The notes beneath the pieces were generated by a model. That model worked only from the letters and a program-made list of their open reading frames with translations. It made no database searches and was not told the DNA's origin. DNA of 64,000 bases from Diphasiastrum complanatum (Eukaryota > Streptophyta > Lycopodiopsida > Lycopodiales > Lycopodiaceae): assembly GCA_029204225.1 (NCBI GenBank), contig CM055099.1, forward strand, positions 60,609,919 through 60,673,918, given 5' to 3'. The stretch's first letter is position 1, and every line of letters starts with the position of its first letter. The position numbers and the translations under genes were made by a program. Below, in pieces: positions 15,046 to 54,100 of the stretch.

Positions 15046-15047
15046 TG

Positions 15048-15059: not shown

Positions 15060-15130
15060 CGACTAGCCGGTCAGCTACGCAAGTCTCACAGGGATGGCCA
15101 CGTTTTTGGGATTTGTCAGGACAACCGTTG

Positions 15131-15878: not shown

Positions 15879-18092
15879 ATGGAGGACCATCTTGAAGAGT
15901 TACGAGCACTGACGGACGGAGAAGAGCTGACTCGAGAATACAGCTCTCGCATGCATCGAGATGGCACCAGGTCCAAGTCGAGAAAGAAAGAGCGTATGCA
16001 CTCCACAGTGGCGCCCCTCCATGAAGAGATGGGTGGCCCTTCTGAACCTACACCAAGAGATGAACCCTTGCCAGAGGCACAACAGGACCTCTTTGAAGTG
16101 AAGATGCGGCAATACTTATCAAGCGCAATGACGGCTATGCTTAGCGAGGTGAAGAAGGATAGAGAAACCGAAAGGAAAGAATGGCAAACATCCTTGCGAG
16201 CCATGAATCTTACCCAAATTAACCTTGCTAGAGAAATGAGAGACGGGCTAACACAGCTCGAAGCCAGGTTTGAAGAGTTGGAAGCAACTAGGGAGAATGC
16301 AGTGGCGCCTCCTCCACAGATACCAAGAGAACCACGAGCGCGAACCACGGAGGGCCCAAGAAAGACTGCCAAAGTGAAAGCACCACCTACTTTCAAAGGA
16401 GAGCGTGATATTCGAGTTGTGGAAGATTGGTTGTTTCACATGGACCATTACTTCCGTCTAATGAACACTCCTGAGGAAGAAAGAACTGACTTGGCATTAG
16501 CATATTTTGAGGGCTACACTACAAATTGGTACCGGATGGCAGGAATGCATTTTCAAACATGGGACGCATTCAAAGCCGCGTTACGAGAGGAGTTCATACC
16601 GAAGGATTCACACATGAGATTGAGGACAGAATTATCGGGGCTCAAACAGAAAGGGTCATTGCGAGAGTACCTCAATAGATTCAGACAGAGTGTATGGGTT
16701 ATTGAAGATATGTCCGAGGCGGACAAAACTCATTACCTATTGTCTGGAATGCAATCCTGGACCCGACGTGCGATAGACAGCTACATGCCCCATGATTTCA
16801 ATTCAACTATTCGAGCGGCTGAAATGGTTTGTGATTATGAGAGCACATTGGCACCAGCTGCTCCCGCAACCTCAACAAGAGTATTTAGTGGATCCAGACC
16901 GAGTCCGAGCTTCTTTTCAAGAGGGGACTCAGCTCCAAATGGCAACCAAGCCTCGAGTAGCGTGAATAAATTCCCAACAAAAACAGGGTTTGGCAACCAA
17001 GGCAACAATGGAGGGAACATGTTCCAGAGAAGAAACAATGTTGGATCTTCGACTAGTCACAGCAACAGCTCACCAACAGTGGGCAGTTCCATGCGTTGCT
17101 TCAACTGTCATCAGCAAGGTCACTCTTGGAGATCATGCCCCAAACCATTGAATAAGCAAATCATGGCTGCCATTGAAGGATTTGATAGGATGGAGAGAGA
17201 GGCATTTGATCAAGAAGATGGTGAACAAGATGATGAAGAGGACCCAGAAACGGATTTGACGGAGTCTGACCTGAATGCCTTGCAACAGATAGGGGCACTT
17301 GCGGCTTATCGTGAACATCTTATGGCGACTCCTGCGAGAGGATCCAAGTTATTGTACCTGAAAGGCTGTATTCAAGGCAGGATCATTTACTTCATGGTAG
17401 ACCTGGGGGCGTCTCATAACTACTTGTCAGAAAAACTGACAGGAGAATTGGACATCCAATGTGAAGAAAATGTGACTCCTATTTGTGTGGAGACCGCGAA
17501 AGGTACAATGACCACTTGTAGATTGGCAACCAACTTACCAATCTCTCTGGGAGCCTGGAAGAATCGACTAACGTTCACAATCTTGAAGATGGATGCCTTC
17601 GACGCTATTTTGGGATTAAGTTGGTTTAACGAACATGTGGTGGCCTTCTTGGCAAAAGGGGTTAACCTTGTGTTATTATATAATGGCAGGAGACCTTGTG
17701 TCGTCAGAGCTGTGCCAGGGGACCAACTAGAAAAGAACGACACAAATGAACCTGAGCCAACCATTCCTCCCAATCTCATTCACCTATTTAACGAAGGACA
17801 ACCAACAGTGACAGACCAGCTGGCACGGGAACAAATGGAGCCAAAATTGCCTATAGTCTCTACACCAAAGGTGAATTCAAGTGCCGATGCAGAGCTCAAG
17901 GAGCTCACCTTGTGTGACCAAGCGAAAACTCATCTTCTTAATGAAAGACATCCAACAGTGACAAACCAGTTGACGCGAGGTCAAATGGAGCCAACATTGC
18001 CTGCAGTTTCTACGTCAAAGGTGAATCTAAGTGCCGATGCAGAGCTCAAGGAGCTCAACCTGGACGACCAAACGAAATATCTAAAGTCCTAG
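15879..18092 (+). CDS. Gypsy-type Gag-protease polyprotein, copy 1
   Basis: 737 codons, intact. Residues 1-150 are charged, with a likely helical/coiled stretch (about 70-145). Residues about 165-325 form the Retrotrans_gag-like capsid domain (WLFHMDHYFRLMNT, YFEGYTTNWYRM, LREYLNRFRQ). After a Ser/Asn-rich linker comes one CCHC knuckle (C407, C410, H415, C420). A retropepsin-like domain follows, with VDLGASHNYLS at 507-517 and ILGLSWF at 577-583. The usual D-S/T-G is D-L-G (508-510), so cleavage activity is doubtful. The C-terminus is two tandem 50-residue repeats (635-684, 685-734), after which the frame ends where RT would be expected. A TATAAAAAG-like word lies about 50 bp upstream of the ATG. 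Confidence 0.93.
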   Translation: MEDHLEELRALTDGEELTREYSSRMHRDGTRSKSRKKERMHSTVAPLHEEMGGPSEPTPRDEPLPEAQQDLFEVKMRQYLSSAMTAMLSEVKKDRETERKEWQTSLRAMNLTQINLAREMRDGLTQLEARFEELEATRENAVAPPPQIPREPRARTTEGPRKTAKVKAPPTFKGERDIRVVEDWLFHMDHYFRLMNTPEEERTDLALAYFEGYTTNWYRMAGMHFQTWDAFKAALREEFIPKDSHMRLRTELSGLKQKGSLREYLNRFRQSVWVIEDMSEADKTHYLLSGMQSWTRRAIDSYMPHDFNSTIRAAEMVCDYESTLAPAAPATSTRVFSGSRPSPSFFSRGDSAPNGNQASSSVNKFPTKTGFGNQGNNGGNMFQRRNNVGSSTSHSNSSPTVGSSMRCFNCHQQGHSWRSCPKPLNKQIMAAIEGFDRMEREAFDQEDGEQDDEEDPETDLTESDLNALQQIGALAAYREHLMATPARGSKLLYLKGCIQGRIIYFMVDLGASHNYLSEKLTGELDIQCEENVTPICVETAKGTMTTCRLATNLPISLGAWKNRLTFTILKMDAFDAILGLSWFNEHVVAFLAKGVNLVLLYNGRRPCVVRAVPGDQLEKNDTNEPEPTIPPNLIHLFNEGQPTVTDQLAREQMEPKLPIVSTPKVNSSADAELKELTLCDQAKTHLLNERHPTVTNQLTRGQMEPTLPAVSTSKVNLSADAELKELNLDDQTKYLKS

Positions 18093-18459
18093 GGGACTCA
18101 TCCAGATGTGCGACCACAACGACATATCTGAGGCTTAAGGGAGCCGTGAGTACCTTTTTCTTTCATGCTAATAAAGTAAGCCGCATTTCTCATTGAGGAG
18201 TGAGCTTCAGTTTGATGTCTAAGTGCAGCAGCTTCACACAGGTTTTACGTAAGTGAACTAGATCCACACTTTTCCTGTGCTGGGTGTAAAACACAATATC
18301 ATTACTCTGCTTTACAGTTGGTTTTCTTTGGCCGGTGAATCAAGCCCGTGCCCTTGTATATGTGACTAAAGTCTGGCCGGTGAATTAAGCCCGTGCCATG
18401 AGTCTTAGGTTCTAGTTTGGCCCTGATGAGGACATCAGCTTTCTCAAACGAGGGGAGGA
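18093..18459 (+). other. 3' untranslated part of element copy 1, with polypurine tract
   Basis: Non-coding. It holds a direct repeat (GGCCGGTGAATYAAGCCCGT, at about 18330 and 18375) and ends in the purine tract AGGGGAGGA (18451-18459) abutting the 3' LTR, the plus-strand primer of reverse transcription. Confidence 0.85.
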
Positions 18460-19379
18460 TGTTGTAAAGCTGACTTGGGTGCACCCAGCGTGCCCTGTAA
18501 GACTCAAAGGGGTGACACTCCCTAAGGTCCCAGAGCAAGTTAGAATGTCAAGGACTGAGCCTCCGACCTGTGGTGAGCCAGTCAAGTAGTCACAAAGTCA
18601 TGAGCTAGCTCTGGAGCTCGAGTCATGGCCTAGTCAGGAAAGCAGGTTGATTCGGCCGCCGGGACGGCTCCCGGGACCCATGTCCGGGAGCCAGACTGAT
18701 TCTGCCAGGCTTGCCAGGCTTAATCAGCAAAATAAAAACTAAGTCCTAAAAAGCGTGCTTTACCAGAAAGCACTATGTTTCAAACCAGAGGGGGTGCGCC
18801 GAATCACAGCAGAACTATAGGGGGAGTCCGGCAGACAGAAACTTGGGCGGCTCAACCAGCGCCAGGAATCCAGTCGCCAGGTCTCAGCTCCCTCTACCAG
18901 CACGAGCCAGGCACAATGCCCAGCACGTGTTGGTGGCCCCGAGACCGGTCAGTCTATGTATGAATGTAACCTCTTCCAAATCTAATAAAGTTGATCCTTG
19001 GGGATGATTACCATTTCGGTTTCGCCTCCGGGACTGGTCCAAGTGGAAGGACCCTTACTACAACCTTTTTGCGTCGCTGGCGCCTAAGGGTCCCTGTCAT
19101 CGACATGGGGCTTGCCGCTATGCCAATTGGTCAGTTTGGCGACCACTATGCCTTGGGTTTCATGTGTGGCTTGTCTTTGCCTTTGGTTACCTTTTGGGGA
19201 CGGATTCTGAGTTGGCTTTCGGGTTGGTTGGGATTCCAGTTTTCTTAAGTCTGAATGGTTAAGCTTGTTACGATTCTGAGTTGGCTTTTACGTAAGTGCG
19301 AGATGGATGAATGTTAGACTTAAGCGCGTGTTGGGGAAACCGCTCAAGTCCCAGCGCCCTTTGAGGCGCCGGCGCAACA
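18460..19379 (+). repeat. 3' LTR, copy 1
   Basis: 920 bp, no difference noticed from the 5' LTR. It ends in CAACA directly before the right TSD copy TTGGC (19380-19384). Confidence 0.95.
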
Positions 19380-29835: not shown

Positions 29836-30237
29836 CAAGAAATCTGATGCTTTTGCCAAGTTTAGAGAGTTCAAGGCTCCAGTTGAAAAACAAACAAATT
29901 GTTATATTAAGACCCTCAGATCAGATGGTGGCGGTGAGTATTTTTCAACAGAGTTTATAAATTTTTGCAAGGATCAGGGGATCAAGAGACAAACCACTAC
30001 ACCCTATTCACCACAGCAGAACGGAGTTGCAGAACAGAAAAATAGATCCGTTGTGGAGATGGCTAGGGCAATGCTTAAGAGCAAGGGTTTGCCAAATACT
30101 TTCTGGGCAGAAGCATGCAACACAGCTACTCATTTCTTGAATCGGTGTCCTACGAAGTGCGTGGCGGGTAAGACACCTTACGAAGCTTTTATTGGAAAGA
30201 AACCTAATGTTTCTCATTTACGAGTATTTGGTTGTAA
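29836..30237 (+). pseudogene. Copia integrase core fragment
   Basis: Plus-strand frame with KKSDAFAKFREFK, the second catalytic D in LRSDGGGEYFS, QGIKRQTTTPYSPQQNGVAEQKNRS with the catalytic E, and HLRVFGC at the end of the core. It starts abruptly in the opposite orientation to the RNase H on its left and stops abruptly after FGC, where an unrelated transposase-like reading frame begins. Neither LTRs nor gag are present. Confidence 0.88.
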
Positions 30238-31725
30238 TGAGAATGTCAATAACAAGTTGATAGTTGTTCTCAAGTTAGATGAGTTTGAAATTATAAAAGG
30301 ACAAAAAATGGAAAGAGTCAGTCTCATGATCATGAATGAACCACTTTCAAATTCAGAAAACTCAGAAGGCCTCAATTTCAGTGTTCAATCAGAAAATGAT
30401 ATCTGATGGTTGGCAGCATTTCAGGTGTAGCAGTTCCTTCACATAGTAAATAGGGATAATCATTTGAATATGGATTTCATATCTAAAATCTTTTCTGTGT
30501 TAATATTATGAGGCTAATCACATTTTTGTATTCTCTTATAGGTGCTGAAAGAAGACCATGACATTCTCTCATGGATATTTAATAGAACATCATATCCTGC
30601 CACCATAAAAAATCATATGGAGGGAGTTCCACTCAATATTCCTGGAATTGGCACTTTCAACATTCAATGGCATTTAGCAAGAGATCTGAAGACATTAAAA
30701 TGTATGTTCAATGTATCTCATGGCGCTAACTCTAAACACCCTTGTTTGTATTGCATGAAAACAACAAAAGACATGCCAAGGAGTACAGGAATATCAAGAG
30801 ATCGAGAAGATTCTAACTGGAAACCTGTACTACCGATTCCTTTACGAAATGTTCATATCTGTACATTGCATGCGGAGGTGCGTATTATAGAAAAAATAAT
30901 ATAACTTCACATCTTGTTTGCATGGAATTCCGTGCCACAGGCCTCTACGAAAGAAGCTATTTCCAGATTAGAGGATGTGTTGTCCAAAGCAGGCTTACAT
31001 AAAGGCCACGTTAAAATTAAAAAAGATGACAAGCTATCAAGTAAAATAGGAAATATTCCATGCAAGTCGAGCATTGGTGGATCTAAAGCTTGAAGATTTT
31101 TATCAAATTATTTTGGCAAACAATCTAAGGTTCAATACACGGTTTGGAAAGAAATTATTGCAGCAACTCAAGATTTCAAAGAAGAAGGTTCTACTCGTAT
31201 ACACAAAGTAGAAGTTTGGAAAAAGTTAGACAACAATTTTGAAATACTTGAAAAAAGATAAATTTTAAAATACTGATGTACAAATGATACAGAAAACAAC
31301 CAATGAATTTGTGGATGTAATTCAAATGACATGGGGTGTTGATCATATAACACATTATATGGTAAGATTTTGATTTTACACTACGATAGACAAATATGTG
31401 CAATTAAATTAGATACTTTTGGTACTGATTTAGATTATGCTTTTATGACATGCAGCACATATTACGACATCATTCGACATTCTTTGCAAGAGATAGTGGA
31501 AGTCTTAGCATACGATCATCGCAAGGAATGGAAAAATCTCATTGGCAAGCAAGAGCAGCATTTCATAAAAGTACACAACATGGCGGGACTAGCACCAAAA
31601 ATAACTATATACTGCAACTTTTCCAATGGTTTTACAGAAGAATCCAAATTCGTCATAATACAAAATTGATGAATTATAAAAAATTTCAAAAAGCATGCAA
31701 ATTTATACAAGCCAGTAGGCTATAG
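30238..31725 (+). pseudogene. Transposase-like gene, N-terminally truncated, family unassigned
   Basis: Read through at least three in-frame stops (near 30410, 30902 and 31092) and two probable introns (30427-30541; 31362-31455, GTAAGA...ATGCAG). The product has NIQWHLARDLKTL, then GANSKHPCLYC (a Cys pair within the core), NVHICTLHAEVRIIEKI, a helical middle, and at the C-terminus HYMHILRHHSTFFARDSGS, GMEKSHWQAR and STQHGGT. The order Asp - CxxC - H - Glu fits an RNase H-fold (DDE) transposase with a zinc-binding insert. This is inference from pattern, not a family match. It converges on the minus gene ending at 31776, with 50 bp between stops. Confidence 0.55.
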
Positions 31726-31775
31726 ACACACAATAAAATTTTGCATATTAGATGAAAATATTTACAAATTACAAT

Positions 31776-33173
31776 TCAGCAGTATCTAATCTGCTTTCGA
31801 TATTTTTTCCAATGAAAGTTGCAACTTGAATCATGCAACAATTTTTTTCTTTCGTATGGATCCAATAGCTCATAGTTTTCATACTTACTTAGATCAACAT
31901 AAGCAGCATACACTGAGATGATCTGAGCATGGAATTCACTGGTCCATATCCTAAAATTTTAACCGCAATAGTTTTTTTTACAAAAATTATTTCATGCACC
32001 TTATTATGTCCTCCAAGAAAATGAGACAGTGCCTTAATCGCCATAATCATAGTTTCACCATGTTGATGAAACTTTGAATGGGCAACACTTATCTCATTAT
32101 TCTTGAAGGACTTCAGATAGTGCCCCAATGCATGATCTCTTGAAAATTCTCCAACAGAAGATCTCTGCCCTCCTCGACGAATTGCGAAATCATCGAGAAA
32201 AATTGTTTCCTAAAATGATAAAAAACAAAGTAAACTCCAGTATATAAACTGACGTTGGTGAATAGACAGTTGGCTGTGGAGAACCAAGTTGACTTTGGAT
32301 TCTAAGAAACTCCTCCTCAGAAGGTAGATCATCTTCTTTCTTGCGCATTTCCTCCACAGCCATTTTCAAGCAATCTTTCCCTGAATAAAACTTATCATTA
32401 TATACATCGTCAACACCAGGGAGAAGATCATTAACATCAAAATCAATTATATTCAAAAATTCATCTAGATCTTTGCCAAAATGCAAAGACTCTCAGCTTC
32501 AGTGAAGCCAAAAAGATCCGATATATCCGATATTGTCAAAAAGGTTATTATCTATATTATAAGTAGGCAAGGTGATCAAAGATTTATCAGAAGGAGAAAG
32601 AGTAGTGGGGGTTCTAGGGCCTACAAATGTAGCCGTATTTCGAGTAGGATCAAAATTAGAACAATCATCTAAACTAACACTCGTATCAATAAAAAAAGTA
32701 TCTATATCTACAATCTTTGACTTTTCAGACTTTGTACCACTAGAAGAAGCTGCTTCAAAAGTGGAGGGAACAGCCTCCGAATCGTCAGAAATATTTAGCA
32801 AAAGAAAAAAACAAAAACAGACTGAAAATCAACAAATCTACATTTCTTATTATGAATTGGGCACTCATCTACAGACTTGAAATCATTATGTAACTTGGTA
32901 AACATTCTGTCAATCTTAGCTTGATAGATATGCTTGTCGAGTGCCACCAGGTCCTGATAATGAATCATGTCCTTATTCTGAGATCTGAATAAGAGAGTAC
33001 TGAGCAGGGACTTATATCTGAGATATATCTCAGAAAATGCCTCCACACCAGGGCCCTTAGGTTTAGAAGGTAGAATAAAAAGAAAATGAGAAAAAAGAGA
33101 TTTGAAATACTCCAACCTATCAATAATACCAAATTCATGAAAAAAAGAAAGCAAACTAAATTCAAAACTAGAC
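31776..33173 (-). pseudogene. Unknown multi-exon gene, convergent with the transposase-like gene
   Basis: Starts at ATG 33173 (MSSFEFSLLSFFHEFGIID). A hydrophobic/helical N-terminal region ends in DECPIHNKKC; a frame slip in a T-rich tract (about 32815) leads to a Ser/Thr/Asp-rich segment (ISDDSEAVPSTFEAAS), two in-frame TGAs (about 32490-32500), then an acidic block (DVNDLLPGVDD, KKEDDLPSEEEFL). Likely introns lie at about 32208-32262 (acceptor TTTTAG) and 31923-31999 (donor AAG|GTGCAT, acceptor GCTCAG). The last exons encode FAIRRGGQRSSVGEFSRDHA and DPYERKKLLHDSSC, ending at TGA 31776-31778. I do not recognise the family. Clean splice signals argue for a once-real gene; the lesions argue for decay. 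Confidence 0.5.
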
Positions 33174-33194
33174 ATATTAAACAAAAACAACAGA

Positions 33195-34076
33195 ACTAAT
33201 ATTTTAAATATCGCTCTCAGGCATAAAACCCAGATCAGGCAAGCACATCAAGGCAACGTGCGCTCGAGAGAGATATTTCAAGTTGGAGTATCGGATCCGA
33301 GCGCAAGAACAAAGAGCAAAAAAAAAAAGAGATGCAAAGCACGCTTGAATGCGATATCGGATGATGCAGTATCAGATCCAGACGCAAAATAGTCAATGAA
33401 GGATAATGAGAGCAAGCGGCGCGCTTGAAATCGATATCCGGCAAAGTAGTTGTAAATTTGCGTGAAAATCCGAGCCGAAGAAGACCTATTTATAAAAAAA
33501 AAAACTCGCACGTGTGGATTAGTAGCGACGGAACACTTGTTGACTTGTGATTGGTCAAAATAATTGCGCCGTACCTAGAATGATTGATCTGACATCTGTC
33601 ACGTGCGAGAATGACACGCGTCGAGAGCGCATTCGCGCACGTGTCTCAGCCCACGTGGCCTAATAATAGGGTCATCATTGTTAGTATGGACAGTCCACAT
33701 GGGCTGATAATATATCGACACATGTCCTCGTCGTCTTTTCACACGTGCAAAAATTTCGTATACATAAGTCCTCAGAAATTTCATCTTTTTTTGCAAAATT
33801 TTCGCTTTTAGCTCCCAATATCGCTCTCAAGCACGCTCTTTCACCGTTCTAGATTTTGCCCTCTCACAGTGCGCTCGAGTCCGATACCGCTGGTATTCCA
33901 ATATCGCTTTTGAGCGCGCATCTCGTCCATAAAATAATCTCTGTAGATCTTGCGCTCAAAACTGATATTAAGTTCTGGTATCGATCTCTAGCGCCCTTTC
34001 ATTGCAAAATTTTTTGTTTTCATCCACTTTTCTTTTGTTCGATTTTTTTTTTTTTGTTTATTTTTTTCCTCTGAGT
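33195..34076. promoter_or_regulatory. Divergent promoter with five G-boxes and mirrored leader repeats
   Basis: The 903 bp between the two divergent ATGs (33173 minus, 34077 plus) hold five perfect CACGTG G-boxes (33509, 33600, 33638, 33652, 33742), a minus-sense TATAAATA (33487-33494) and a plus-sense TATACATA-like box near 33758. Each box is about 315 bp from its ATG. Outside them both leaders carry the same modules in the same transcript sense: CGATATCGMTTTCAAGCRCG at 33418-33441 and 33339-33360 (minus) and at 33813-33836 (plus), and a GTGCGCTCGAG...CCGATAC module at 33259-33304 (minus; reading order differs) and 33869-33919 (plus). G-boxes bind bZIP/bHLH factors in plants. Confidence 0.65.
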
Positions 34077-36270
34077 ATGATGGCTAGGACCAAATCCATT
34101 GCCCATGCCATAACCACTGTACAGCCATCCCATTCACGTGTTCCTCTTGGTACTAGCCGTAGGCATGGCAGGAAGCAGGTCTGGCTGAGGGAGATAAGAA
34201 AACTCCAGAGATCAACTGAATTGTTGATCCCTAGAGCTCGAGCTCCTTTCAGCCGATCTATACGGAATGTCACTCTGTCACTTGGGCTGGATGTTCGTTT
34301 TGCCGTGACAGCCATGCAGGGTGCTGCAAAAGATTTTTTATCCTAGTTTTTTGAGGATTCGTGTCTTTTGGCAGTGCATGGTAAGCGTGTCACCATCATG
34401 CCGAAGGATTTTGTCATTCTCAAAAGGCTTCGGGACAGATATTTTGGTCTGCATGTTGATAATGCCAGCACCTCCAGAGACCTGCCTCTGGATAGAACCG
34501 ATTTGCCTACTACCTCTAGGAGGAAGAGAAAGCAGCCTGTCCCCAAGAAGGCTGGATCTCGTAGGCCAGCTGCTTCCCTTCCTCCTAGAGTTATCCCGGC
34601 CAAGAGATCTCGTGTCTTCTTGAGCTCTGAGTCAGATGCTGGAGAATCTGACTCAAATCGAGAATCTTCACCCCTTCCTCCATCTGTTATTCGTCCAGCT
34701 CCTCAGCATGTTTCATCACCAAAAGTGTTGATTACCCAAGAGGAGCTAGACAAAATAAGAGAGAAATATGTAAATATTGTTTCCACTTCTGTTTCCACTC
34801 CTGTACATAATCTTTTTGTGAGAATTCCATACGATCCAGCCCAAGTTTTTTTTTATTCTGACCATTATAATCCATACGAGGCCTACCTAGCTAACAAAAT
34901 TGATTTTCTTGGCAACGTTTTTGATTTTTTTTCTTCCACATACACGTAGAAGCTTTAGATTAGGTCTCAAATTTTGTGCCAAGCTAAAAGATAAGACTTC
35001 AAAAGTTTCAGATGCAATAGTAGAGGCCGGAGTTTCTTTTTTGCAGAATAGTATTAGTTTCGATTCCCATGGTACAATTTTTATAGTTAGTCCATTTTTC
35101 ATGGAAGCGGTAAAGGCGAAAGAAGCCAATTTTGAGAAGGCTGTCTATTTTATCGAGTGTAGTCCTATGGTGAAATTCTATTTGATTCCATATGAAAATA
35201 AGTAAGGATTGCTCTTTTGTTTTTGTTGCTTTAATCTGGATTGTTGCATGCCTCATTGCTTTAATAAGAACGGAATTTTTTCATAAATATGAATTTATCG
35301 ATATTTGTATCTTGGTTGTTGTAGTCGGCATTGGAGCCTAAACATTCTTTTTGTAAAGATAAATAAGGAGGGAGTATCAAATTTTCTAGGTGTAAAATTA
35401 AACTCAACTGCAAATACACATAGAGAATTTGAATCTCTACTTCATGATGCCGTTCGAGAAATACCGACAACGGCAACTTCAATTGGAGATATAACCATTA
35501 AATCTCTCAAAGTATATTCAATTTATTTCTGATATGCATGTATTCAATTTTTAATCCAAATGTATTGTCATAGCATAAATAAAATTTCTATCATAATATT
35601 ACTAATTTTCGTTCTATATATGCAGTGTGTACAACAAAATGACGCTTTTAGTTGTGCATGGTTCGTCTTGTACAATACGAAACTATTTTTTGAATGGTAT
35701 AATTACAAACGGATGTTGATATTGAAAAGGTAATATTCTATTCATTTGTAGTTCATTTCATTCTGATTCATATTTTATTACTATCATTGTTTGTAATTTG
35801 CTGATTCTCGTGTTTTGTGATGACAGTTCATTCTTGAGACGTATACTCCTGATGATGTATATAGATTTCAGCAAGAGTTGATCAGAACCTTTGCCCAGTA
35901 CGGTGTAAGTGTTGCACCTGCAATCGAGGGCCCTCAAAGGAAGCTGCTCCTGCCTTAACAGCCTTTCAGGTTGTTCAGGATGTAGATCTTATTTTATATG
36001 ATCAAAAAGGAATAAAAGTCCTTCCTAATACAGAGGAAGGCAATTTTGTAGCAGCTATTCCTCTTGCCTTAAATGGCATTGAGGCCCTTCTCGAAACAGA
36101 GGAGGGCAAGATTATAGAAGGAGTTGTTGCCTTATCAGTTCCTAATACTGATATAGACAATATAGAAAAATTGATTGAATAGAGGATGGGACCGCCACCA
36201 ATTTTGGTGGGGAATACTGTTGGAGGGTTTGCCGATATCAAGGCAATTAGATTATTCATTTATCAGAAGG
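34077..36270 (+). pseudogene. Histone H3-like domain followed by Ulp1-like cysteine protease domain
   Basis: ATGs at 34077 and 34080; the second gives the H3 start MARTK. H3 landmarks follow: LREIRK, STELLI, DVRF, FFEDSCLLAVHGKRVTIMPKD. One in-frame TAG (34344-34346) lies inside the fold. The frame runs on past the H3 end (about 34450) through a basic/Ser-rich linker, slips +1 in a T tract near 34930, then reads VSPFFMEAV, VKFYLIPYENN. After an intron (GTAAGG at 35201; acceptor TTGTAG at 35325) comes RHWSLNILFV. After a second (GTATAT; acceptor ATGCAG at 35625) comes CVQQNDAFSCAWFVLYN. The H...Q-x6-C order is that of C48/Ulp1 proteases; the catalytic Asp position seems replaced. A last exon (35827-36270) has a frameshift and a TAG at 36180-36182, and ends at a donor. 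Confidence 0.7.
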
Positions 36271-36339
36271 TAATAAGTGAGAGGGATTTTGCACCCTATG
36301 TGTGTAATGTTCATTTCAATATGAGCAGGTCAAACCTCG
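36271..36339 (+). other. Probable intron start of the H3-protease gene
   Basis: Follows the donor AAG|GTAATA. The downstream exon, if any, was separated by the inverted-repeat element that begins near 36340. Confidence 0.3.
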
Positions 36340-36454
36340 ATCAAATTGGAATTGGATGTCCTTGCTCTTCTATCTTGCTTCATCTCTCATGCTTTATTTG
36401 GATTTTGATGTTGCTTGGTTTTGCTAATTGTTGGAATTGATCCTTGTTATACTT

Positions 36455-36459
<5 letters not shown>

Positions 36460-36549
<90 letters not shown>
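36460..36549 (+). repeat. (GA)45 microsatellite
   Basis: Pure dinucleotide run in the left arm of the inverted-repeat element. Confidence 0.97.
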
Positions 36550-36552
<3 letters not shown>

Positions 36553-37334
36553 AAGCTTGATCTTTGGTTGAGTAATATTTTGGATCGTAGTGTTAATTTT
36601 GAAATCATAATCATGTGTATGAATCTGAACTATGCTATCGCTCTCATGGGAACGAATCTCCGCGTGACACCTTAATCTTCTTCATCCTTTGATGCTTGAT
36701 TGTGCTAGGATCTAGGGTTGAAGGTGGATAGGAAATACTCGCTTCATATTCAATGGTCTATCACCCTTCAGGGTGGAAAGCCATGAGGTAACTCAAACAA
36801 AGTCTACACTATCTCTACACTTATGGCAAAGTATTTTAGTAGTAGTGTTTTCAAAATATAAGACTTCACAATGAGGCATATAGGTTAACTTTCCGTCATA
36901 ATGGGAGTTCCATGATAGTAATTGGGTGGTGATATAAAGGATGTTGACACCATTGGCATGCTTTGTGGTATCAGCATATAAGCTCTATTTTTTTTGAAAT
37001 GGTAGATGTGGTTGCTAGGGCACAAGTAAAATGTGGAGAATCAACAAGATTGTAGGCTCATAGACCACTAGGCCTCCTATGTGATAGTGACATGTGTCTC
37101 TGTTGTATCCTTGCTAGGGTGGATTAGATACTTATGTGAAACTACCTTTTCCCTTCATCCATGTGGCACTCAGAACATATAACTTGGCCTAGAATTTTCC
37201 TCTAAACATGGAGGAGTAAACACTTGTTAAAGCAACTAAAAAAATGCTGATTAGCACCAATGCATTTTCAAGATGATGAATTGCAATTGAGAATATGCTA
37301 TAGAGATGCTCAAATTGAGCATTGTCGATGAGAT

Positions 37335-37572
37335 GCATGCCACAATGTGCTTTCTAGCACGCCTCAAGCTTGGATTGACATTCAAGCACAACAACGAACT
37401 CTTGAAGGATCAAGTGGCATAGAAAGAAAACGCCTTTAAGACCAAGAGGAGCCTTGTGGGTGACATGCATGCCACAATATGCTTTCGAGCACACCTCAAG
37501 CTTGGATTGACATTCAAGCGCAACAACCAAACCAACTTGCATAAAAAGAAAATGCCTTTAAGCCCAAGAGGA
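37335..37572 (+). repeat. Two-unit tandem repeat
   Basis: GCATGCCACAATRTGCTTTC, CCTCAAGCTTGGATTGACAT and GCCTTTAAGMCCAAGAGGAG occur in the same order in both units, about 125 bp apart. The 62-codon minus-strand frame through it simply shows this duplication. Confidence 0.85.
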
Positions 37573-37813
37573 GTAATTTTTAGTGACTAGTGTAGTGGGT
37601 TTCTTTCCTTGCCTATCCTCAATCCAAGATCTAATCAATCTAGCATCAAGGAGATGAAGTTAGTTGTCACGTGTAGGTTCGTTCCCATGAGAGCGATAGT
37701 ATAGTTTAGATTTTAACATAAATGGAGGATCTAACACTAACATCCATTAACACTAAGCATTAACACTACATCCATTAACCCTAAATCCACAATAATGATA
37801 GGAACTTACTCTT

Positions 37814-37940
<127 letters not shown>

Positions 37941-38062
37941 AAGCATAAAAAATAGCAATCCCAATAATGATCAAATCCAACAATTAGTAAAATCCAAAGA
38001 AAGCATGAGAGATGGAGGAAAAGAGAGGAGGAGCAAGGACATTCATCAATCCATTTCTAAAG

Positions 38063-38956
38063 GGAACCAATCTGCTTTATTGAAATGAGGAAATGAACAT
38101 CAGAAGCAACTCGAGTTGGTCCCTTTATATAGTAGAGAGGAGGACCCTAACCTCTGAATCCTATTGGTCCAATCTTGCCTCTCTTTTTATTCAAATTTAA
38201 AAAAGTGTGGGAACCATCAAAATTGGAGGGAAACCCAACTTGACATTTAGGCTCTGCGACATTAAAAGTCCTGCAAAAAGGCCTGAAGTCCTTTTATTAA
38301 CTTCTAACTAATCAATCAAATAACTATGTGATCATTGGGTTGGACTTACACACGCAGGGTGCCAAATCCCTCTCACTTATTAACTAGGGTTAGGGTTGCC
38401 TTGGGATCCGCAAACCCTCCAACACTAGCCTCTAGGAAAGACAACAAGCATGCAGACACCCTCGCATGCTTGAATCTCGCCATGTCCAAAAGTTAGTCCA
38501 TCTTTCAAATTTGAGTTCGTTCACAATGCCACATGGAAAATTCTATAACAACTAACTAGCCTTTCCTTCTACAAGACCGGTGCTATTGTAATTAGTTGAT
38601 TGGTGACCCTTTATTACTATGAAATGGTGAGCATGTGGCCATGGTCCAATACCCACTAGAAATTACTTGTTAAGGGGATTTTGGGTAAAAGCATATGAGA
38701 TTGTTACATAGTGGATTCCTACCCTATAAGATAAGCCAATGTTTTTTTTAATTCTAAGCTAATATGCTACATCATGTGTCATTGCACACTTACATTAATA
38801 CATGTGATTTTTCTTACAATTCAACATCTTTTTCATGTAGCTTTAAATCATTGATTAACAGTTTTAAAGCCCAAACCAAGTCAAAGAATGCCAATTCATC
38901 CCATGCCCAATTCCACTTGGTTTCATTGCATTTTATGGCCTCACTTTTCACTCTTG

Positions 38957-41379: not shown

Positions 41380-41384
41380 GGTAC
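41380..41384. repeat. Target-site duplication, left copy (GGTAC)
   Basis: GGTAC precedes the 5' LTR of copy 2 and recurs at 46639-46643 after its 3' LTR. It differs from the TTGGC of copy 1, proving separate integration events. Confidence 0.95.
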
Positions 41385-42304
41385 TGTTGTAAAGCTGACT
41401 TGGGTGCACCCAGCGTGCCCTGTAAGACTCAAAGGGGTGACACTCCCTAAGGTCCCAGAGCAAGTTAGAATGTCAAGGACTGAGCCTCCGACCTGTGGTG
41501 AGCCAGTCAAGTAGTCACAAAGTCATGAGCTAGCTCTGGAGCTCGAGTCATGGCCTAGTCAGGAAAGCAGGTTGATTCGGCCGCCGGGACGGCTCCCGGG
41601 ACCCATGTCCGGGAGCCAGACTGATTCTGCCAGGCTTGCCAGGCTTAATCAGCAAAATAAAAACTAAGTCCTAAAAAGCGTGCTTTACCAGAAAGCACTA
41701 TGTTTCAAACCAGAGGGGGTGCGCCGAATCACAGCAGAACTATAGGGGGAGTCCGGCAGACAGAAACTTGGGCGGCTCAACCAGCGCCAGGAATCCAGTC
41801 GCCAGGTCTCAGCTCCCTCTACCAGCACGAGCCAGGCACAATGCCCAGCACGTGTTGGTGGCCCCGAGACCGGTCAGTCTATGTATGAATGTAACCTCTT
41901 CCAAATCTAATAAAGTTGATCCTTGGGGATGATTACCATTTCGGTTTCGCCTCCGGGACTGGTCCAAGTGGAAGGACCCTTACTACAACCTTTTTGCGTC
42001 GCTGGCGCCTAAGGGTCCCTGTCATCGACATGGGGCTTGCCGCTATGCCAATTGGTCAGTTTGGCGACCACTATGCCTTGGGTTTCATGTGTGGCTTGTC
42101 TTTGCCTTTGGTTACCTTTTGGGGACGGATTCTGAGTTGGCTTTCGGGTTGGTTGGGATTCCAGTTTTCTTAAGTCTGAATGGTTAAGCTTGTTACGATT
42201 CTGAGTTGGCTTTTACGTAAGTGCGAGATGGATGAATGTTAGACTTAAGCGCGTGTTGGGGAAACCGCTCAAGTCCCAGCGCCCTTTGAGGCGCCGGCGC
42301 AACA
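41385..42304 (+). repeat. 5' LTR, copy 2
   Basis: 920 bp, TGTTG...CAACA, same sequence as the three other full-length LTRs of the family in this window as far as can be seen. Confidence 0.95.
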
Positions 42305-42306
42305 TG

Positions 42307-42318
42307 TGGTATCAGAGC
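42307..42318 (+). other. Primer-binding site, copy 2
   Basis: TGGTATCAGAGC, as in copy 1. Confidence 0.95.
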
Positions 42319-42389
42319 CGACTAGCCGGTCAGCTACGCAAGTCTCACAGGGATGGCCACGTTTTTGGGATTTGTCAGGACAACCGTTG

Positions 42390-42789
42390 CGCAAGGTGCT
42401 GCCCACAGTGTAAGCACGGGTGCGTCCACGGTCGGGGTGGTCGGCAGAACGGGGGACTTGATGAGTCAAAGTGCTGCCCTCGAGGTGTAAGCACGGTCAG
42501 TTCTCGCGGTTCGGGCCTGGCGCTGTCTGCACGTAGGACGGATGAGGCAAAGTGCTGCCTAGGTAGGTGAAAGCACGGTCTGTACCTTGTGGGGTGCGGG
42601 GCGACATATTCGAACTGTACGGGTTAACCATTGATACAGAGATGCTGCTCGAATTCGGGTGTAAAGCACGGGTGGTTAGCTGCCGGTGCGGGATAGCTGC
42701 CGATCGTTTAGCTATAAGGGCTATCGACCAAAAAGTGGTGGGGCGTGACTGAGGCAATGTGCTGCTTAATGGTGAAAGCACGGATGGTT
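42390..42789 (+). repeat. Array of five leader stem-loops, copy 2
   Basis: Same five GTGCTGC...AAGCACGG modules as at 15131-15530. Because the two copies appear identical, this one adds no independent evidence of conservation. Confidence 0.75.
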
Positions 42790-43137
42790 GGATGGATGTT
42801 TCCCCGTGGGCTAATTCTGTGATAGATTTGTGTGGGCGCGGCTAGGCAAAGGTCCTACGTCCGGTCTCAGGGGGGGTTTGTGGCTTGAGAGGGATCCTCT
42901 ATGTTTGCTTTGGTTGGTATGTTCCGTTTGTCGTGTGCTTGCTTGGACACAAATGACCTGGTTCCTACTTGGCTCTCAGGTGATGTGGGCGTGCTAAGTT
43001 TGAGGAAGGGATATTTTCATTGAAGCTGATTTAATAAAGAAGAAAAGAGAGCTGTGGGGCCCGGCTGACAGAAGGGAGAGCTTCAAATATAAAAAGGATT
43101 GAGGCGATAATCTGTTGGAAGTACACCTCTGACTATA

Positions 43138-45351
43138 ATGGAGGACCATCTTGAAGAGTTACGAGCACTGACGGACGGAGAAGAGCTGACTCGAGAATAC
43201 AGCTCTCGCATGCATCGAGATGGCACCAGGTCCAAGTCGAGAAAGAAAGAGCGTATGCACTCCACAGTGGCGCCCCTCCATGAAGAGATGGGTGGCCCTT
43301 CTGAACCTACACCAAGAGATGAACCCTTGCCAGAGGCACAACAGGACCTCTTTGAAGTGAAGATGCGGCAATACTTATCAAGCGCAATGACGGCTATGCT
43401 TAGCGAGGTGAAGAAGGATAGAGAAACCGAAAGGAAAGAATGGCAAACATCCTTGCGAGCCATGAATCTTACCCAAATTAACCTTGCTAGAGAAATGAGA
43501 GACGGGCTAACACAGCTCGAAGCCAGGTTTGAAGAGTTGGAAGCAACTAGGGAGAATGCAGTGGCGCCTCCTCCACAGATACCAAGAGAACCACGAGCGC
43601 GAACCACGGAGGGCCCAAGAAAGACTGCCAAAGTGAAAGCACCACCTACTTTCAAAGGAGAGCGTGATATTCGAGTTGTGGAAGATTGGTTGTTTCACAT
43701 GGACCATTACTTCCGTCTAATGAACACTCCTGAGGAAGAAAGAACTGACTTGGCATTAGCATATTTTGAGGGCTACACTACAAATTGGTACCGGATGGCA
43801 GGAATGCATTTTCAAACATGGGACGCATTCAAAGCCGCGTTACGAGAGGAGTTCATACCGAAGGATTCACACATGAGATTGAGGACAGAATTATCGGGGC
43901 TCAAACAGAAAGGGTCATTGCGAGAGTACCTCAATAGATTCAGACAGAGTGTATGGGTTATTGAAGATATGTCCGAGGCGGACAAAACTCATTACCTATT
44001 GTCTGGAATGCAATCCTGGACCCGACGTGCGATAGACAGCTACATGCCCCATGATTTCAATTCAACTATTCGAGCGGCTGAAATGGTTTGTGATTATGAG
44101 AGCACATTGGCACCAGCTGCTCCCGCAACCTCAACAAGAGTATTTAGTGGATCCAGACCGAGTCCGAGCTTCTTTTCAAGAGGGGACTCAGCTCCAAATG
44201 GCAACCAAGCCTCGAGTAGCGTGAATAAATTCCCAACAAAAACAGGGTTTGGCAACCAAGGCAACAATGGAGGGAACATGTTCCAGAGAAGAAACAATGT
44301 TGGATCTTCGACTAGTCACAGCAACAGCTCACCAACAGTGGGCAGTTCCATGCGTTGCTTCAACTGTCATCAGCAAGGTCACTCTTGGAGATCATGCCCC
44401 AAACCATTGAATAAGCAAATCATGGCTGCCATTGAAGGATTTGATAGGATGGAGAGAGAGGCATTTGATCAAGAAGATGGTGAACAAGATGATGAAGAGG
44501 ACCCAGAAACGGATTTGACGGAGTCTGACCTGAATGCCTTGCAACAGATAGGGGCACTTGCGGCTTATCGTGAACATCTTATGGCGACTCCTGCGAGAGG
44601 ATCCAAGTTATTGTACCTGAAAGGCTGTATTCAAGGCAGGATCATTTACTTCATGGTAGACCTGGGGGCGTCTCATAACTACTTGTCAGAAAAACTGACA
44701 GGAGAATTGGACATCCAATGTGAAGAAAATGTGACTCCTATTTGTGTGGAGACCGCGAAAGGTACAATGACCACTTGTAGATTGGCAACCAACTTACCAA
44801 TCTCTCTGGGAGCCTGGAAGAATCGACTAACGTTCACAATCTTGAAGATGGATGCCTTCGACGCTATTTTGGGATTAAGTTGGTTTAACGAACATGTGGT
44901 GGCCTTCTTGGCAAAAGGGGTTAACCTTGTGTTATTATATAATGGCAGGAGACCTTGTGTCGTCAGAGCTGTGCCAGGGGACCAACTAGAAAAGAACGAC
45001 ACAAATGAACCTGAGCCAACCATTCCTCCCAATCTCATTCACCTATTTAACGAAGGACAACCAACAGTGACAGACCAGCTGGCACGGGAACAAATGGAGC
45101 CAAAATTGCCTATAGTCTCTACACCAAAGGTGAATTCAAGTGCCGATGCAGAGCTCAAGGAGCTCACCTTGTGTGACCAAGCGAAAACTCATCTTCTTAA
45201 TGAAAGACATCCAACAGTGACAAACCAGTTGACGCGAGGTCAAATGGAGCCAACATTGCCTGCAGTTTCTACGTCAAAGGTGAATCTAAGTGCCGATGCA
45301 GAGCTCAAGGAGCTCAACCTGGACGACCAAACGAAATATCTAAAGTCCTAG
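43138..45351 (+). CDS. Gypsy-type Gag-protease polyprotein, copy 2
   Basis: 737 codons with the same product as the frame at 15879-18092: capsid-like domain, CCHC knuckle (C407-C420), protease-like domain with D-L-G in place of D-S/T-G, and a C-terminal pair of 50-residue repeats. Both copies being intact means either could supply Gag, while RT and integrase must come from elsewhere. It starts at the first ATG after the leader stem-loops. Confidence 0.93.
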   Translation: MEDHLEELRALTDGEELTREYSSRMHRDGTRSKSRKKERMHSTVAPLHEEMGGPSEPTPRDEPLPEAQQDLFEVKMRQYLSSAMTAMLSEVKKDRETERKEWQTSLRAMNLTQINLAREMRDGLTQLEARFEELEATRENAVAPPPQIPREPRARTTEGPRKTAKVKAPPTFKGERDIRVVEDWLFHMDHYFRLMNTPEEERTDLALAYFEGYTTNWYRMAGMHFQTWDAFKAALREEFIPKDSHMRLRTELSGLKQKGSLREYLNRFRQSVWVIEDMSEADKTHYLLSGMQSWTRRAIDSYMPHDFNSTIRAAEMVCDYESTLAPAAPATSTRVFSGSRPSPSFFSRGDSAPNGNQASSSVNKFPTKTGFGNQGNNGGNMFQRRNNVGSSTSHSNSSPTVGSSMRCFNCHQQGHSWRSCPKPLNKQIMAAIEGFDRMEREAFDQEDGEQDDEEDPETDLTESDLNALQQIGALAAYREHLMATPARGSKLLYLKGCIQGRIIYFMVDLGASHNYLSEKLTGELDIQCEENVTPICVETAKGTMTTCRLATNLPISLGAWKNRLTFTILKMDAFDAILGLSWFNEHVVAFLAKGVNLVLLYNGRRPCVVRAVPGDQLEKNDTNEPEPTIPPNLIHLFNEGQPTVTDQLAREQMEPKLPIVSTPKVNSSADAELKELTLCDQAKTHLLNERHPTVTNQLTRGQMEPTLPAVSTSKVNLSADAELKELNLDDQTKYLKS

Positions 45352-45718
45352 GGGACTCATCCAGATGTGCGACCACAACGACATATCTGAGGCTTAAGGG
45401 AGCCGTGAGTACCTTTTTCTTTCATGCTAATAAAGTAAGCCGCATTTCTCATTGAGGAGTGAGCTTCAGTTTGATGTCTAAGTGCAGCAGCTTCACACAG
45501 GTTTTACGTAAGTGAACTAGATCCACACTTTTCCTGTGCTGGGTGTAAAACACAATATCATTACTCTGCTTTACAGTTGGTTTTCTTTGGCCGGTGAATC
45601 AAGCCCGTGCCCTTGTATATGTGACTAAAGTCTGGCCGGTGAATTAAGCCCGTGCCATGAGTCTTAGGTTCTAGTTTGGCCCTGATGAGGACATCAGCTT
45701 TCTCAAACGAGGGGAGGA
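45352..45718 (+). other. 3' untranslated part of element copy 2, with polypurine tract
   Basis: As in copy 1; purine tract AGGGGAGGA at 45710-45718. Confidence 0.85.
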
Positions 45719-46638
45719 TGTTGTAAAGCTGACTTGGGTGCACCCAGCGTGCCCTGTAAGACTCAAAGGGGTGACACTCCCTAAGGTCCCAGAGCAAGTT
45801 AGAATGTCAAGGACTGAGCCTCCGACCTGTGGTGAGCCAGTCAAGTAGTCACAAAGTCATGAGCTAGCTCTGGAGCTCGAGTCATGGCCTAGTCAGGAAA
45901 GCAGGTTGATTCGGCCGCCGGGACGGCTCCCGGGACCCATGTCCGGGAGCCAGACTGATTCTGCCAGGCTTGCCAGGCTTAATCAGCAAAATAAAAACTA
46001 AGTCCTAAAAAGCGTGCTTTACCAGAAAGCACTATGTTTCAAACCAGAGGGGGTGCGCCGAATCACAGCAGAACTATAGGGGGAGTCCGGCAGACAGAAA
46101 CTTGGGCGGCTCAACCAGCGCCAGGAATCCAGTCGCCAGGTCTCAGCTCCCTCTACCAGCACGAGCCAGGCACAATGCCCAGCACGTGTTGGTGGCCCCG
46201 AGACCGGTCAGTCTATGTATGAATGTAACCTCTTCCAAATCTAATAAAGTTGATCCTTGGGGATGATTACCATTTCGGTTTCGCCTCCGGGACTGGTCCA
46301 AGTGGAAGGACCCTTACTACAACCTTTTTGCGTCGCTGGCGCCTAAGGGTCCCTGTCATCGACATGGGGCTTGCCGCTATGCCAATTGGTCAGTTTGGCG
46401 ACCACTATGCCTTGGGTTTCATGTGTGGCTTGTCTTTGCCTTTGGTTACCTTTTGGGGACGGATTCTGAGTTGGCTTTCGGGTTGGTTGGGATTCCAGTT
46501 TTCTTAAGTCTGAATGGTTAAGCTTGTTACGATTCTGAGTTGGCTTTTACGTAAGTGCGAGATGGATGAATGTTAGACTTAAGCGCGTGTTGGGGAAACC
46601 GCTCAAGTCCCAGCGCCCTTTGAGGCGCCGGCGCAACA
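45719..46638 (+). repeat. 3' LTR, copy 2
   Basis: 920 bp, followed by TSD GGTAC (46639-46643). Confidence 0.95.
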
Positions 46639-51162: not shown

Positions 51163-54100
51163 GCGTTTATAAGCTGCATCACGTCCACCTCTGCTGTTTT
51201 TTTTCTGAACGAAAAGCTCTGCAACATTTTCAAACGAGTATAGCTATGGATCAGCTACACATACAATGTTTCACAGGCATACAGAAACGACACTTGAGTC
51301 GTAACTCTGTTTCGATTGCTTATGAGCCTTAATAAACTTCATAGACATGCCGGATGAGACAGTCTTGGCTTGTGATTCACAGCCTTGTTTCACCCTTTTG
51401 AAGGCAAATTGTTCTATGCTCTCAAATCTGATGTGGGCATTCCAGGTCTTTACCAGAGATTTCACTAATCCCGTGAAACGTACTTTGACCTTTTGAGCAG
51501 TCTTGCCTTTGCAAAAAGGGGAAATTAAAATAAAGCCGACTCCATCGAAATGTACCACAGTGACACTGATGGATACCTCCAAAATAAAATCACCCCACCA
51601 GCCCCCAAAACCCTTGCCCAGGATCGCAGTCATATGACTGCACATTCTCAGTCATTTTCATAAAACTTGTCTCTTTTATTCTTTTATATCAAACTTACAA
51701 ATTGACAACAATAATTTACCAACTCAAAACGTGTGCCTCTGATTTGGAAACAAGAGTCTGTTGTCACTTCTAATGGCTTTTAATGGCTAAATGTAGTTTG
51801 GATGATATTCATTTTAAAATTTTGATAACATTTTGGAGCTGAGAAACCTTTTGACGAGTGTTTACACAGAATGGAACGTTATGAACCCTGCTATGTTTCA
51901 ATACATTTATCTTCCCACATGTGGTGAGTTGGTGTATAGGGCTTGAGTTGGGCTCGCCCACCCAAGTTCTATTCTCTAAGATCTCATGGCTTGATAATAC
52001 CAAAGGGCATATTTTAATACATTTATGCTGTTTGCCAGCAAACGTTACTACGTTTGAAAAACTCTCTGAAGAATTCACAGTTTAAAAGGGTTTTGACAAA
52101 AAAACTAAAATTTTGATTCTGGGACTTGTTGCATTGCAAATTATTTTGAAACCTCAGATATTTTTTTCTGGCTCCCTTGTGGTGGATTTAAAAAATCTCT
52201 TACCTTCACGCGTCCATCCAAATCAATTTGAGCAGTCTGTCTGTACTAGCTGAGGGGACTGGTGAAAAGTTTCTTCACATAATTCAATGCAATTTTTACC
52301 CTTCGTTTTGTATGATCATTGTGAGAATAACATGTGTAGCTGACAATAAAATGTTTCCACTTTTGACCTCGAAAATTACAGTGGTGCCTTTTAGATGTTG
52401 CAAACTACTTCCAAGCAAGGGCCCAGGGGGTAAAATTGCACAACATGTTGAGGAATGATCACGCTGACTCAGTTATGAGGACTTGTACCGTGAGGTGTGC
52501 TTTGTATTGTAGACTGATGTGGGCACTTTGTATCTCTATTTGTAAGGTGACAATATGGCAAAGTTGGCTTGATTTAGAGAACAATATAGACCTGCCTGCC
52601 AAAGAGCATTGCACTGAAAGCACTTGATGTCCAATACATTTGACAATGGATAACGTTAATATGGATCAATGAGGTATGCCATAATGAGGATGTGCCAGCT
52701 AGACGAGTCCTCTGATCCTATATGAGGGATAAATTCTTTGTATCTTGGCTTCCCAATTTCTCATTTGCAAGGATTTTGTGGATCCTCTTATCTTCTCCTT
52801 TGTGTATGTTTTTGCTCCCTTTCCATGCTTTTCACCGTAAATGTTCTTGAAGCTCTGCCCTAACTCACAATACTTGTGATATGAACCTTGCTTGATAGGT
52901 GGAGGAGAAGCTTATGAGCAGTGTTAGCTAAGGTTGTGTGGTTGAGCTTTTGGAGTTTATAGTATCTTTTGCTTTTTGGCTGGAGTATGAAGAAGAGCAA
53001 AAAGAAGTAACAGAAGAAAAAGGAAAGAGATGAAGAAGAAATAACTAGGAAAAGATAACTCTCTTTTCATTTTTGTAGTGGATAAGCATTTTGTAGCTTG
53101 ATTTCTAATGCATAAACTCCTCATAATAGCTCCATATTGGATCCGTACATGCTAGAGATATAAGTAGAGGTTGTCCTCCATTGATGCAGTGGAGACAGTA
53201 AAAAGAGCAAGAACATTATCCTGATGCAATGGAGGCAGTAAAAAGTGCAAGAACATTTACCTGAGAACTTAATGCTTTGATCAATTCATTATAGAGGCAT
53301 TGATCCCTGTGGCAAAATATTGCAAAACCTAAACCTTTAGCTACTTATTGAGTCTGACAATTTTTGAAAGTTCCTAGACAGAAAATTGGTGGGTAGTGTC
53401 ATCAGTGCTCCCAGTGAAATAAAGTAATTCTGTTAGTTTCAACCTGATGATGGTTATTTCGTGTTTAATCTCTTTTGAGATACCAAAGAATGAACATGCT
53501 TCTTACTAAAGGTACGTGTGCCACTCACTGAAAACTGGAAAAATTACATGACAAAATATTGGAGACATTGCAATGCCAAAGACACTTCTTGTAAATTTGG
53601 ACTTCGACAATCCACAAAGTTTCCTTGTACGTCTATCATACTATTTTGAGTATTACTATGCTTCCTGCCATAAATTGACCAAGTTCTTTGATTTGTTATC
53701 CTTCATGAAAAACAACAAATCATTGGTGCATATTACATAAACTGCACATAAATTAGGGAATCTGAATACGAAGATTGGCCTGAACAGTTTTGCATAGTTC
53801 TGCCATAGAAGCATATAATAGAGAAAGGTCACCTTCACCATTGTAAACATACTGTCCTCACCTTCAAATTTTTATGCATTGAGAGTGACTATTTTCACCC
53901 TGATTCTTTGCTGGCAATACATGCATAACATTTAAAGTCCACTGACAATACGTGCATGACATCTAAAAGTCCAATTTTTTCAGGAACGTGTAATATTTCC
54001 AAAGGCGAATGGGTAATTGATCTGAAGGGTCCTCTTTACACAAATGCATCTTGTGCATTTATCCAGGAACATCAAAACTGTCTTAAAAATGGAAGGCCTG

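Follow-up and report, generated by a model that had tools for sequence, protein, structure and literature searches.

Two families of a multi-copy transposon group in the genome of Diphasiastrum complanatum (1.74 Gb) carry a histone H3 and an Ulp1/C48-type protease joined in one gene. A copy of this H3-protease gene lies at 34077-36182 of the window, that is, the whole 64,000-nucleotide stretch of contig C8 analyzed here; it is a dead member of one of the two families (family C), and its left side is cut off. By analogy with the VANC and KIU genes of plant transposons, we give an even chance to the reading that the fusion is a transposon-made H3 without lysine 9 (K9) combined with a deSUMOylase, and that it would serve as an anti-silencing factor. 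If this is true, a self-made histone lacking the silencing lysine (three of four families), fused in two families to a protease of the SUMO type, would represent a new anti-silencing route.

Gene layout and damage of the window copy

The window copy and its companion genes are arranged as follows (positions in the window):

30237-31709, + strand: decayed transposase-like gene (t) at the copy's left end, with Copia sequence adjoining; 67-68% DNA identity to loci L023/L028
31892-33247, - strand: divergent gene m, of several exons; tblastn pieces at 26-58% (amino acids) to L023-L025/L028 and 77-93% to L026
33209-33994, no strand: intergenic cluster of motif TATCGCTCTCAAGCGC in both orientations, with 8 of the 10 window matches
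34077-34184, + strand: H3-like N-terminal tail, MMARTKSIAHAI, with K4 retained and A in place of K9
34185-34460, + strand: histone H3-like fold (PF00125 3.1e-18; PDB H3/CENP-A 3-4e-19), in-frame TAG at 34344-34346
34461-34929, + strand: basic/acidic linker with a frame change in a T-run at about 34921-34935; uninterrupted in L046 and L047
34930-35201, + strand: N-terminal part of the C48-like domain, GT donor at its end; matches L015, L023, L024, L026 (second element) and L027
35325-35511, + strand: exon 2, catalytic-His region RHWSL and KLNS
35626-35728, + strand: exon 3, QQNDAFSCA (Gln/Cys region), with an internal frame change; 72-73% DNA identity to L015/L025/L027/L028
35827-36182, + strand: exon 4 and acidic C-terminal extension up to the probable stop, with a frame change near 35930

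The gene opens at 34077 with MMARTKSIAHAITT, and LREIRK, STELLI and KRVTIMPKD follow in sequence; these signatures, the MARTK start and the residues H-A-I at tail positions 8-10 all read as an earlier note on this DNA had described them. The H3 frame continues through the basic linker as far as 34949, and the T-run frame change leads into the segment at 34930-35201. Downstream lie three more exons, bounded by GT-AG splice sites, which encode RHWSL and QQNDAFSCAWFV, so that the catalytic-His and Gln/Cys regions pointed out earlier are indeed present, in exons 2 and 3. Joining the donor at 35201/35202 to the acceptor at 35324/35325 yields ..ENN-RHWSL, and removal of the intron at 35512-35625 yields ..LKC-VQQNDAFSCAWFV. 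The earlier description of the copy as dead was correct as well, given the TAG at 34344-34346 (the only one in the fold, entered as X in profile searches) and the frame changes. Those in exon 3 and near 35930 were read by eye; the latter is also present in L047 and may be an unrecognised intron. The gene end, previously placed at 36270, is probably at 36182, since L047 has an identical ..LIE stop matching that position; the former end is about 90 bases too far, in a stretch where a fold-back repeat begins (36215).

Recurrence of the fusion across the genome

A genome search with the Histone profile, in which 150 of 6,325 first-look candidates were scored, reported 153 matches. The best 13 reached 163.7-165 bits, and the eight of these that were fetched (L001-L008) are canonical H3. 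The remaining matches listed ran from 110 down to 83 bits and were mostly divergent; three partial ones at 83-84 bits adjoin canonical ARTKQTARK tails and are probably intron-split host genes. Twenty further loci were fetched, chosen only by an H3 match and a long open frame. With window pieces as tblastn queries, 16 of the 20 contained pieces of m or t, while L015 and L027 gave the protease piece only, and for L010 and L021 the alignment to family A extends over at least 2.4 kb around the H3 gene. We divided the loci into family A (L009-L014, L016-L022), family B (L015, L023-L025, L027, L028) and family C (L026, L045-L047 and the window copy), which have in common the transposase-like gene, gene m and the H3-like gene. 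In family A a long segment rich in proline and acidic residues separates the H3 tail from the histone fold at the C terminus, and the frames read showed no fused protease. The H3 of families B and C is joined to the linker and, where readable, to the protease.

The recurrence of this arrangement was scored with two protein queries. The family-B query was the 331-residue exon of L025 (tail, fold, linker and protease N-part), with stops read through. All 121 scored loci (9,698 candidates) read from the fold through the linker into the protease N-part in a single frame, with 81-100% match and each covering at least residues 12-314; by our own count 23 are stop-free over the query and 98 contain stops. 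The family-C query comprised 275 residues (tail, fold and linker), and all 140 scored loci (8,377 candidates) have fold and linker in one frame at 73-100% match, the window copy among them at 81%; 23 are stop-free over the query and 117 have stops, again by our own count. Two family-C loci, L046 and L047, reach the protease N-part uninterrupted, with tail, fold, linker and N-part sharing one open frame; in L045 the frame breaks off after the linker, and L047 has downstream exons as in the window copy. The H3 and the Ulp1/C48-type protease are one gene in families B and C, as the earlier note had proposed from the window alone. Because the fusion recurs across loci of this genome, chance juxtaposition is excluded, and with it, within this genome, the case of a retrocopied H3 pseudogene lying beside a protease. 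A locus 155 kb away on the same contig (G000:C8:60798728-60799549) equals the window copy in score and stop count and is probably a duplicated or unmerged haplotype block.

Histone fold and tails

Profile searches support the H3 domain read by eye in the earlier note. The window fold matches PF00125 with an E-value of 3.1e-18 (66.6 bits, cut-off 26.4; TAG read as X), and its relatives do so at 4e-27 (L025) and 4.1e-28 (L019). In phmmer searches of the PDB the window fold matched CENP-A/H3.3 chains at 3-4e-19, and the best 60 matches listed are H3/CENP-A. Identity to host H3 is 46-54% for the transposon H3-like folds and 52-53% for that of family A. In a midpoint-rooted tree the transposon H3s are separate from H3/CENH3 with weak support (73/73); the tree included two plant CENH3 rows and a CENP-A row copied from the PDB match. 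In families A to C, LIP precedes APF and KDF/KDL is present, features also of the plant CENH3 rows apart from an ASF in one row and a KDM in one.

Across families A-C, K9 is replaced in all 24 tails (23 loci and the window), and K4 is retained in 23, the exception being an E in L026. At position 9, the 13 family-A loci have D (11) or G (2), the six family-B loci D (five) or G (one), and all five family-C copies, window included, A. The family-C tails follow the pattern ART[KE]STA[RH]A, and the family-B tail is MDRRKQTRRD. The sequence MARTKQTARD is encoded at 102 places in the genome, five of which are fetched family-A loci, and MARTKQTARK at 26 places (control 0 for each). Loss of K9 is not universal, because a decayed family D keeps ARTKQTARK: at locus L048 (C1:40570870; G000:C1:40570600-40573400) this tail is followed by a decayed, divergent histone fold, and a relative of gene m was recognised by eye beside the H3-like gene. 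The DNA of the tail at C17:25721131 is the same as that of L048. Since position 9 is D or G in families A and B and A in family C, with K4 nearly always kept, and since family D keeps both lysines, the four families would amount to a natural test of the importance of individual H3 tail residues.

It could be hypothesized that the tail acts by itself, as a mimic recruiting H3K4 readers or writers or as a decoy for H3-tail enzymes, so that the element is activated and the loss of K9 is incidental. The number of exact MARTKQTARD tails in the genome, although the family-A fold has diverged so far from host H3, would favor this hypothesis, as would the near-constant K4 and the K9 of family D. However, the fold has been retained too, which mimicry of the tail alone would not need, and the family-B tail has no free ARTK end. 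We consider this explanation rather unlikely, and return below to the reading in which fold, tail and protease act together against silencing.

The protease part

The earlier note had assigned the second domain to the C48/Ulp1 proteases. A search with PF02902 bears this out for the spliced L025 gene (2.4e-10, 41.1 bits against a cut-off of 20.7), but the window copy alone stays below that cut-off (0.0075, 16.6 bits). In the PDB, spliced L025 matched 6dg4, named as an Ulp1-like SUMO protease (7.5e-4), and Ulp1 itself (1euv, 1.1e-3), and the alignments match at the catalytic His, Gln and Cys; the corresponding segments of L025 read DHWSL (His) and QQNNSFSCGW (Gln/Cys). The catalytic Asp is replaced by Asn (KMNS/KLNS) in the window, L046, L047 and all five family-B loci having exon 2. 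With this Asn, the domain is classed as C48-like and its protease activity is putative.

Only L025, among the six family-B loci read, has a full undamaged set of protease exons. In L015 the Cys has become Tyr, in L027 and L028 the first Gln codon is a stop, L023 lacks part of exon 3, and L024 lacks the later protease exons. No undamaged family-C protease was found among the copies read, L047 having a stop in exon 3.

Element ends and mobility

Two lines of evidence show that family B is a mobile DNA element. First, the elements have exact ends. Four family-B copies stop at an identical base, ..CTCTAATG, and their flanks are unrelated. The sole family-B element read end to end, which includes L030 and L025, is 9,305 bp long and has terminal inverted repeats (TIRs) of about 30 bp (CATTAGAGGAATTCTCAATATCAAAAAG); no left TIR could be located for the L028 copy. 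At up to two mismatches the 28-base element end occurs 1,055 + 1,088 times in the genome (control 0), and these 2,143 ends are not a count of independent insertions, because some of them sit in duplicated blocks.

Secondly, empty sites exist. The joined flanks of the L025 element are found uninterrupted at 190 + 238 = 428 places (up to three mismatches, control 0), and the element interrupts a Copia-like ORF without any gain or loss of bases; consequently, it was inserted precisely and without a target-site duplication (TSD). No TSD was found in any of six two-ended cases, namely L030+L025 and five pairs of ends regarded as single elements because strand and end type fit and they lie 5-11 kb apart; the pair L039/L040 was left out of this count, both ends being of the right-end type. 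One case has TCA on both sides. Its empty site occurs five times at 2-3 mismatches, with TCATCA in two and TCGTCA in three, and as the empty sites hold both triplets the flanking TCA is native. A third empty site, for the pair L035/L036, was not found.

The earlier suggestion of a mobile element thus holds for family B, whereas no ends were located for families A and C, and a 16-base TIR probe had no match within the window at up to three mismatches. The window's own family C is probably mobile as well, judging from its shared genes and its copy number.

On C1, element ends are clustered at 64.9-66.7 Mb (28 of 100 listed ends) and at 95-98.5 Mb (19 of 100). Insertion bias was considered as the cause and rejected: the tested sites share one flank (10/10 and 4/4), and the clusters are amplified blocks that go back to one old insertion each.

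Insertion bias would be of interest if the H3 fold were a tether to nucleosomes or centromeric chromatin for integration, with the protease maturing or releasing the complex. The occurrence of an H3-like fold in families A-C and in decayed family D, together with the residues that families A-C share with the plant CENH3 rows, is what such a tether would lead one to look for. The insertion bias itself is without support, however, since the C1 clusters are duplicated blocks, and the tree does not join the transposon H3s to CENH3, albeit weakly. We find the tether unlikely compared with an anti-silencing role of the fusion.

A viral origin was hinted at in the earlier note, which mentioned Polinton-like viruses. 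Histones are encoded by giant viruses, and an H4 by bracoviruses, and related proteases occur in polinton-like viruses; an endogenous giant virus or polinton-like virus could therefore have supplied a viral histone and an adenain-like protease. As in those viruses, a parasite genome carries a histone. Unlike viral histones, the one described here is fused to a C48 domain, and its gene is spliced and belongs to a DNA element bounded by TIRs. The spliced genes, the short TIRs and the exact 9.3 kb insertion argue against a virus, and the hint found no support in our searches: none of the ORFs scanned matched a virus family at the cut-off, no polymerase B, packaging ATPase or capsid gene was present among 20 ORFs scanned, which took in part of those of the complete copy, and scans of viral_contigs gave no relatives of the ORF covering the fold end and linker or of the transposase-like alignment. 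A viral source is, in our judgement, very improbable.

Companion genes and promoter motif

Alignments show that the t gene (L012:1029-2111 and others) is common to families A, B and C. In the window copy, positions 30542-30901 match L023, L024, L025 and L028 at 70-76% (amino acids, tblastn). Matches to the H3-protease gene and to t lie on the same strand 3.5-4.1 kb apart in at least 14 pairs among the matches listed (121 and 150). The t gene is a predicted transposase, to judge from this co-occurrence and from conserved residues. The residues D18, D113 and E183 of L012, together with C133/C136 and C178xxH181, all picked out by eye from t-gene alignments and the upstream ORF of L028, only suggest an RNase-H-like DDE core. 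The t ORFs scanned had no Pfam match, and the structure predicted for the t ORF was unusable (pLDDT 38.9). Neither the window m gene nor the gene at the right end of L025 had a match over the cut-off, in Pfam in the case of m. The right-end ORF of L025 (7700-8092, - strand) shows a weak TnsA-like match (0.003, below cut-off) and looks BAH-like by eye.

Motif TATCGCTCTCAAGCGC has 10 matches in the 64-kb window at up to three mismatches, against 0.20 expected from shuffles. The motif cluster was found in families B and C, the family-B motif differing in its middle (TATCGCACTTGTGCGC). A degenerate form, TATCGNNNTNNNGCGC, allowed one mismatch, occurs nine times in window 31500-38500, six in L025, five in L028, three in L023 and six in L026, and 0 times in the family-A loci L012 and L019; these are plain tallies, given without expected values from shuffles. 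Behind the gene, the fold-back repeat (36215-38427) has arms that are 70-72% alike, with long GA/CT runs and one copy of a motif, TATCGCTCTCA, in each arm.

Selection on the histone fold

Between two clades of family B, dN/dS of the histone fold is 0.09-0.17 at dS 0.47-0.60 (8 pairs among 6 loci, representing one contrast). The linker and protease N-part are less constrained over the same contrast (0.31-0.62). Within the clades, where dS is low, dN/dS is 0.21-1.52 for the fold and 0.67-2.03 for the linker part. The family-B H3 fold has been under purifying selection, and the difference between the between-clade and within-clade values indicates that it has been kept for a long time in this family while recent copies decay. 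For L026 against the window dN/dS is 0.37 for the fold alone and rises to 0.47 when the tail is included, and seven family-A loci gave 0.18-1.00 at low dS.

These values bear on whether the histone is merely a passenger, a host H3 gene that was picked up accidentally and then multiplied without having a function. The capture of host exons is known from plant transposons (PMC13317346), and most of the scored copies contain stops, with recent copies near neutral. Against this stand the purifying selection on the fold between clades, the retention of the fold in families B and C (the dS between them not being measurable) and the K4 region kept in the tails. Of the explanations considered here, a functionless passenger has the slightest chance of being right.

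Proposed function

H3K9 methylation is a main silencing mark of plant transposons, and chromatin can tolerate an H3 with a C-terminal tag (H3-GFP). If the fusion is an anti-silencing factor, its H3 fold would pair with host H4 and enter the chromatin of the element or, alternatively, would titrate H3-specific silencing enzymes. The tail would retain the K4 region while making K9 methylation impossible, and the attached C48 domain would strip SUMO or a related modifier off nearby silencing proteins. An element protein with putative binding to the promoter motif cluster would direct the fusion to its own family, like VANC. We infer each of these activities: motif binding, deposition on the element and the cleavage of SUMO. 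Tentatively, we propose as a further possibility that the transposon superfamily deposits a K9-less, K4-competent H3-deSUMOylase by way of the family promoter motifs, so that its own chromatin could not take the H3K9 mark.

Relation to known systems

Among the cargo known from transposons are enzymes and DNA-binding proteins that reverse silencing. A transposon-encoded histone H3 is of another kind; no report of one was found in the open-access literature searched. Cellular H3 and CENH3/CENP-A share with it the fold, the loop residues and, in families A and C, the ARTK start of the tail, but differ in that the transposon versions have K9 replaced (families A-C), are fused to a protease or a long proline-rich segment, and are mobile.

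The element type may be a new transposon group, having no TSD and a predicted transposase that has not been assigned to a family. MULEs have a MULE transposase and a 9-bp TSD. Since family B is without a TSD, the t ORFs gave no match to a MULE transposase in Pfam, and a histone H3 is present, we do not file the element as a MULE. CACTA elements have TIRs that begin with CACTA and a 3-bp TSD, unlike family B with its CATTAGAGG TIR and no TSD. An 8-bp TSD, as given for Zisupton in PMC12730594, is also absent from family B, which sets it apart from Zisupton/KDZ. Spy transposons of the PHIS superfamily are closer in that they have TIRs and no TSDs (PMC4482050), which is what family B shows at its empty sites; the AAATTT target, however, was not seen at the junction flanks, Pfam gave no match to a PHIS transposase, and the cargo here is a histone.

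The nearest functional parallel is found in VANDAL transposons (MULE superfamily, Arabidopsis and other angiosperms). VANC binds short motifs that are concentrated in non-coding sequence of the transposon family it belongs to, and reduces the methylation of those regions (PMC5735166); KIU (Kaonashi Ulp1) genes are VANC genes carrying an Ulp1 domain (PMC13317346). The likeness is that of a plant DNA transposon whose second gene has an Ulp1 domain and whose own family repeats a short motif in its non-coding parts. In contrast, the present gene joins its Ulp1 part to a histone H3, and the motifs stand in both orientations in a divergent promoter. Fungal DNA transposons encode TET/JBP dioxygenases, a chromatin-modifying cargo thought to defeat silencing (PMC12730594). 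Both kinds of cargo would counter silencing, but ours is a histone and not an enzyme acting on DNA, in another host and with no match to a known transposase.

Elsewhere in the window, a retrotransposon-like unit is present twice, at 14125-19379 and 41384-46638, 27 kb apart and 100% identical over 5,255 bases, each copy having direct terminal repeats of about 0.92 kb; the pair is a very recent insertion or duplication. At 53929-60620, open frames separated by large introns resemble, by eye, a trichome-birefringence-like host gene.
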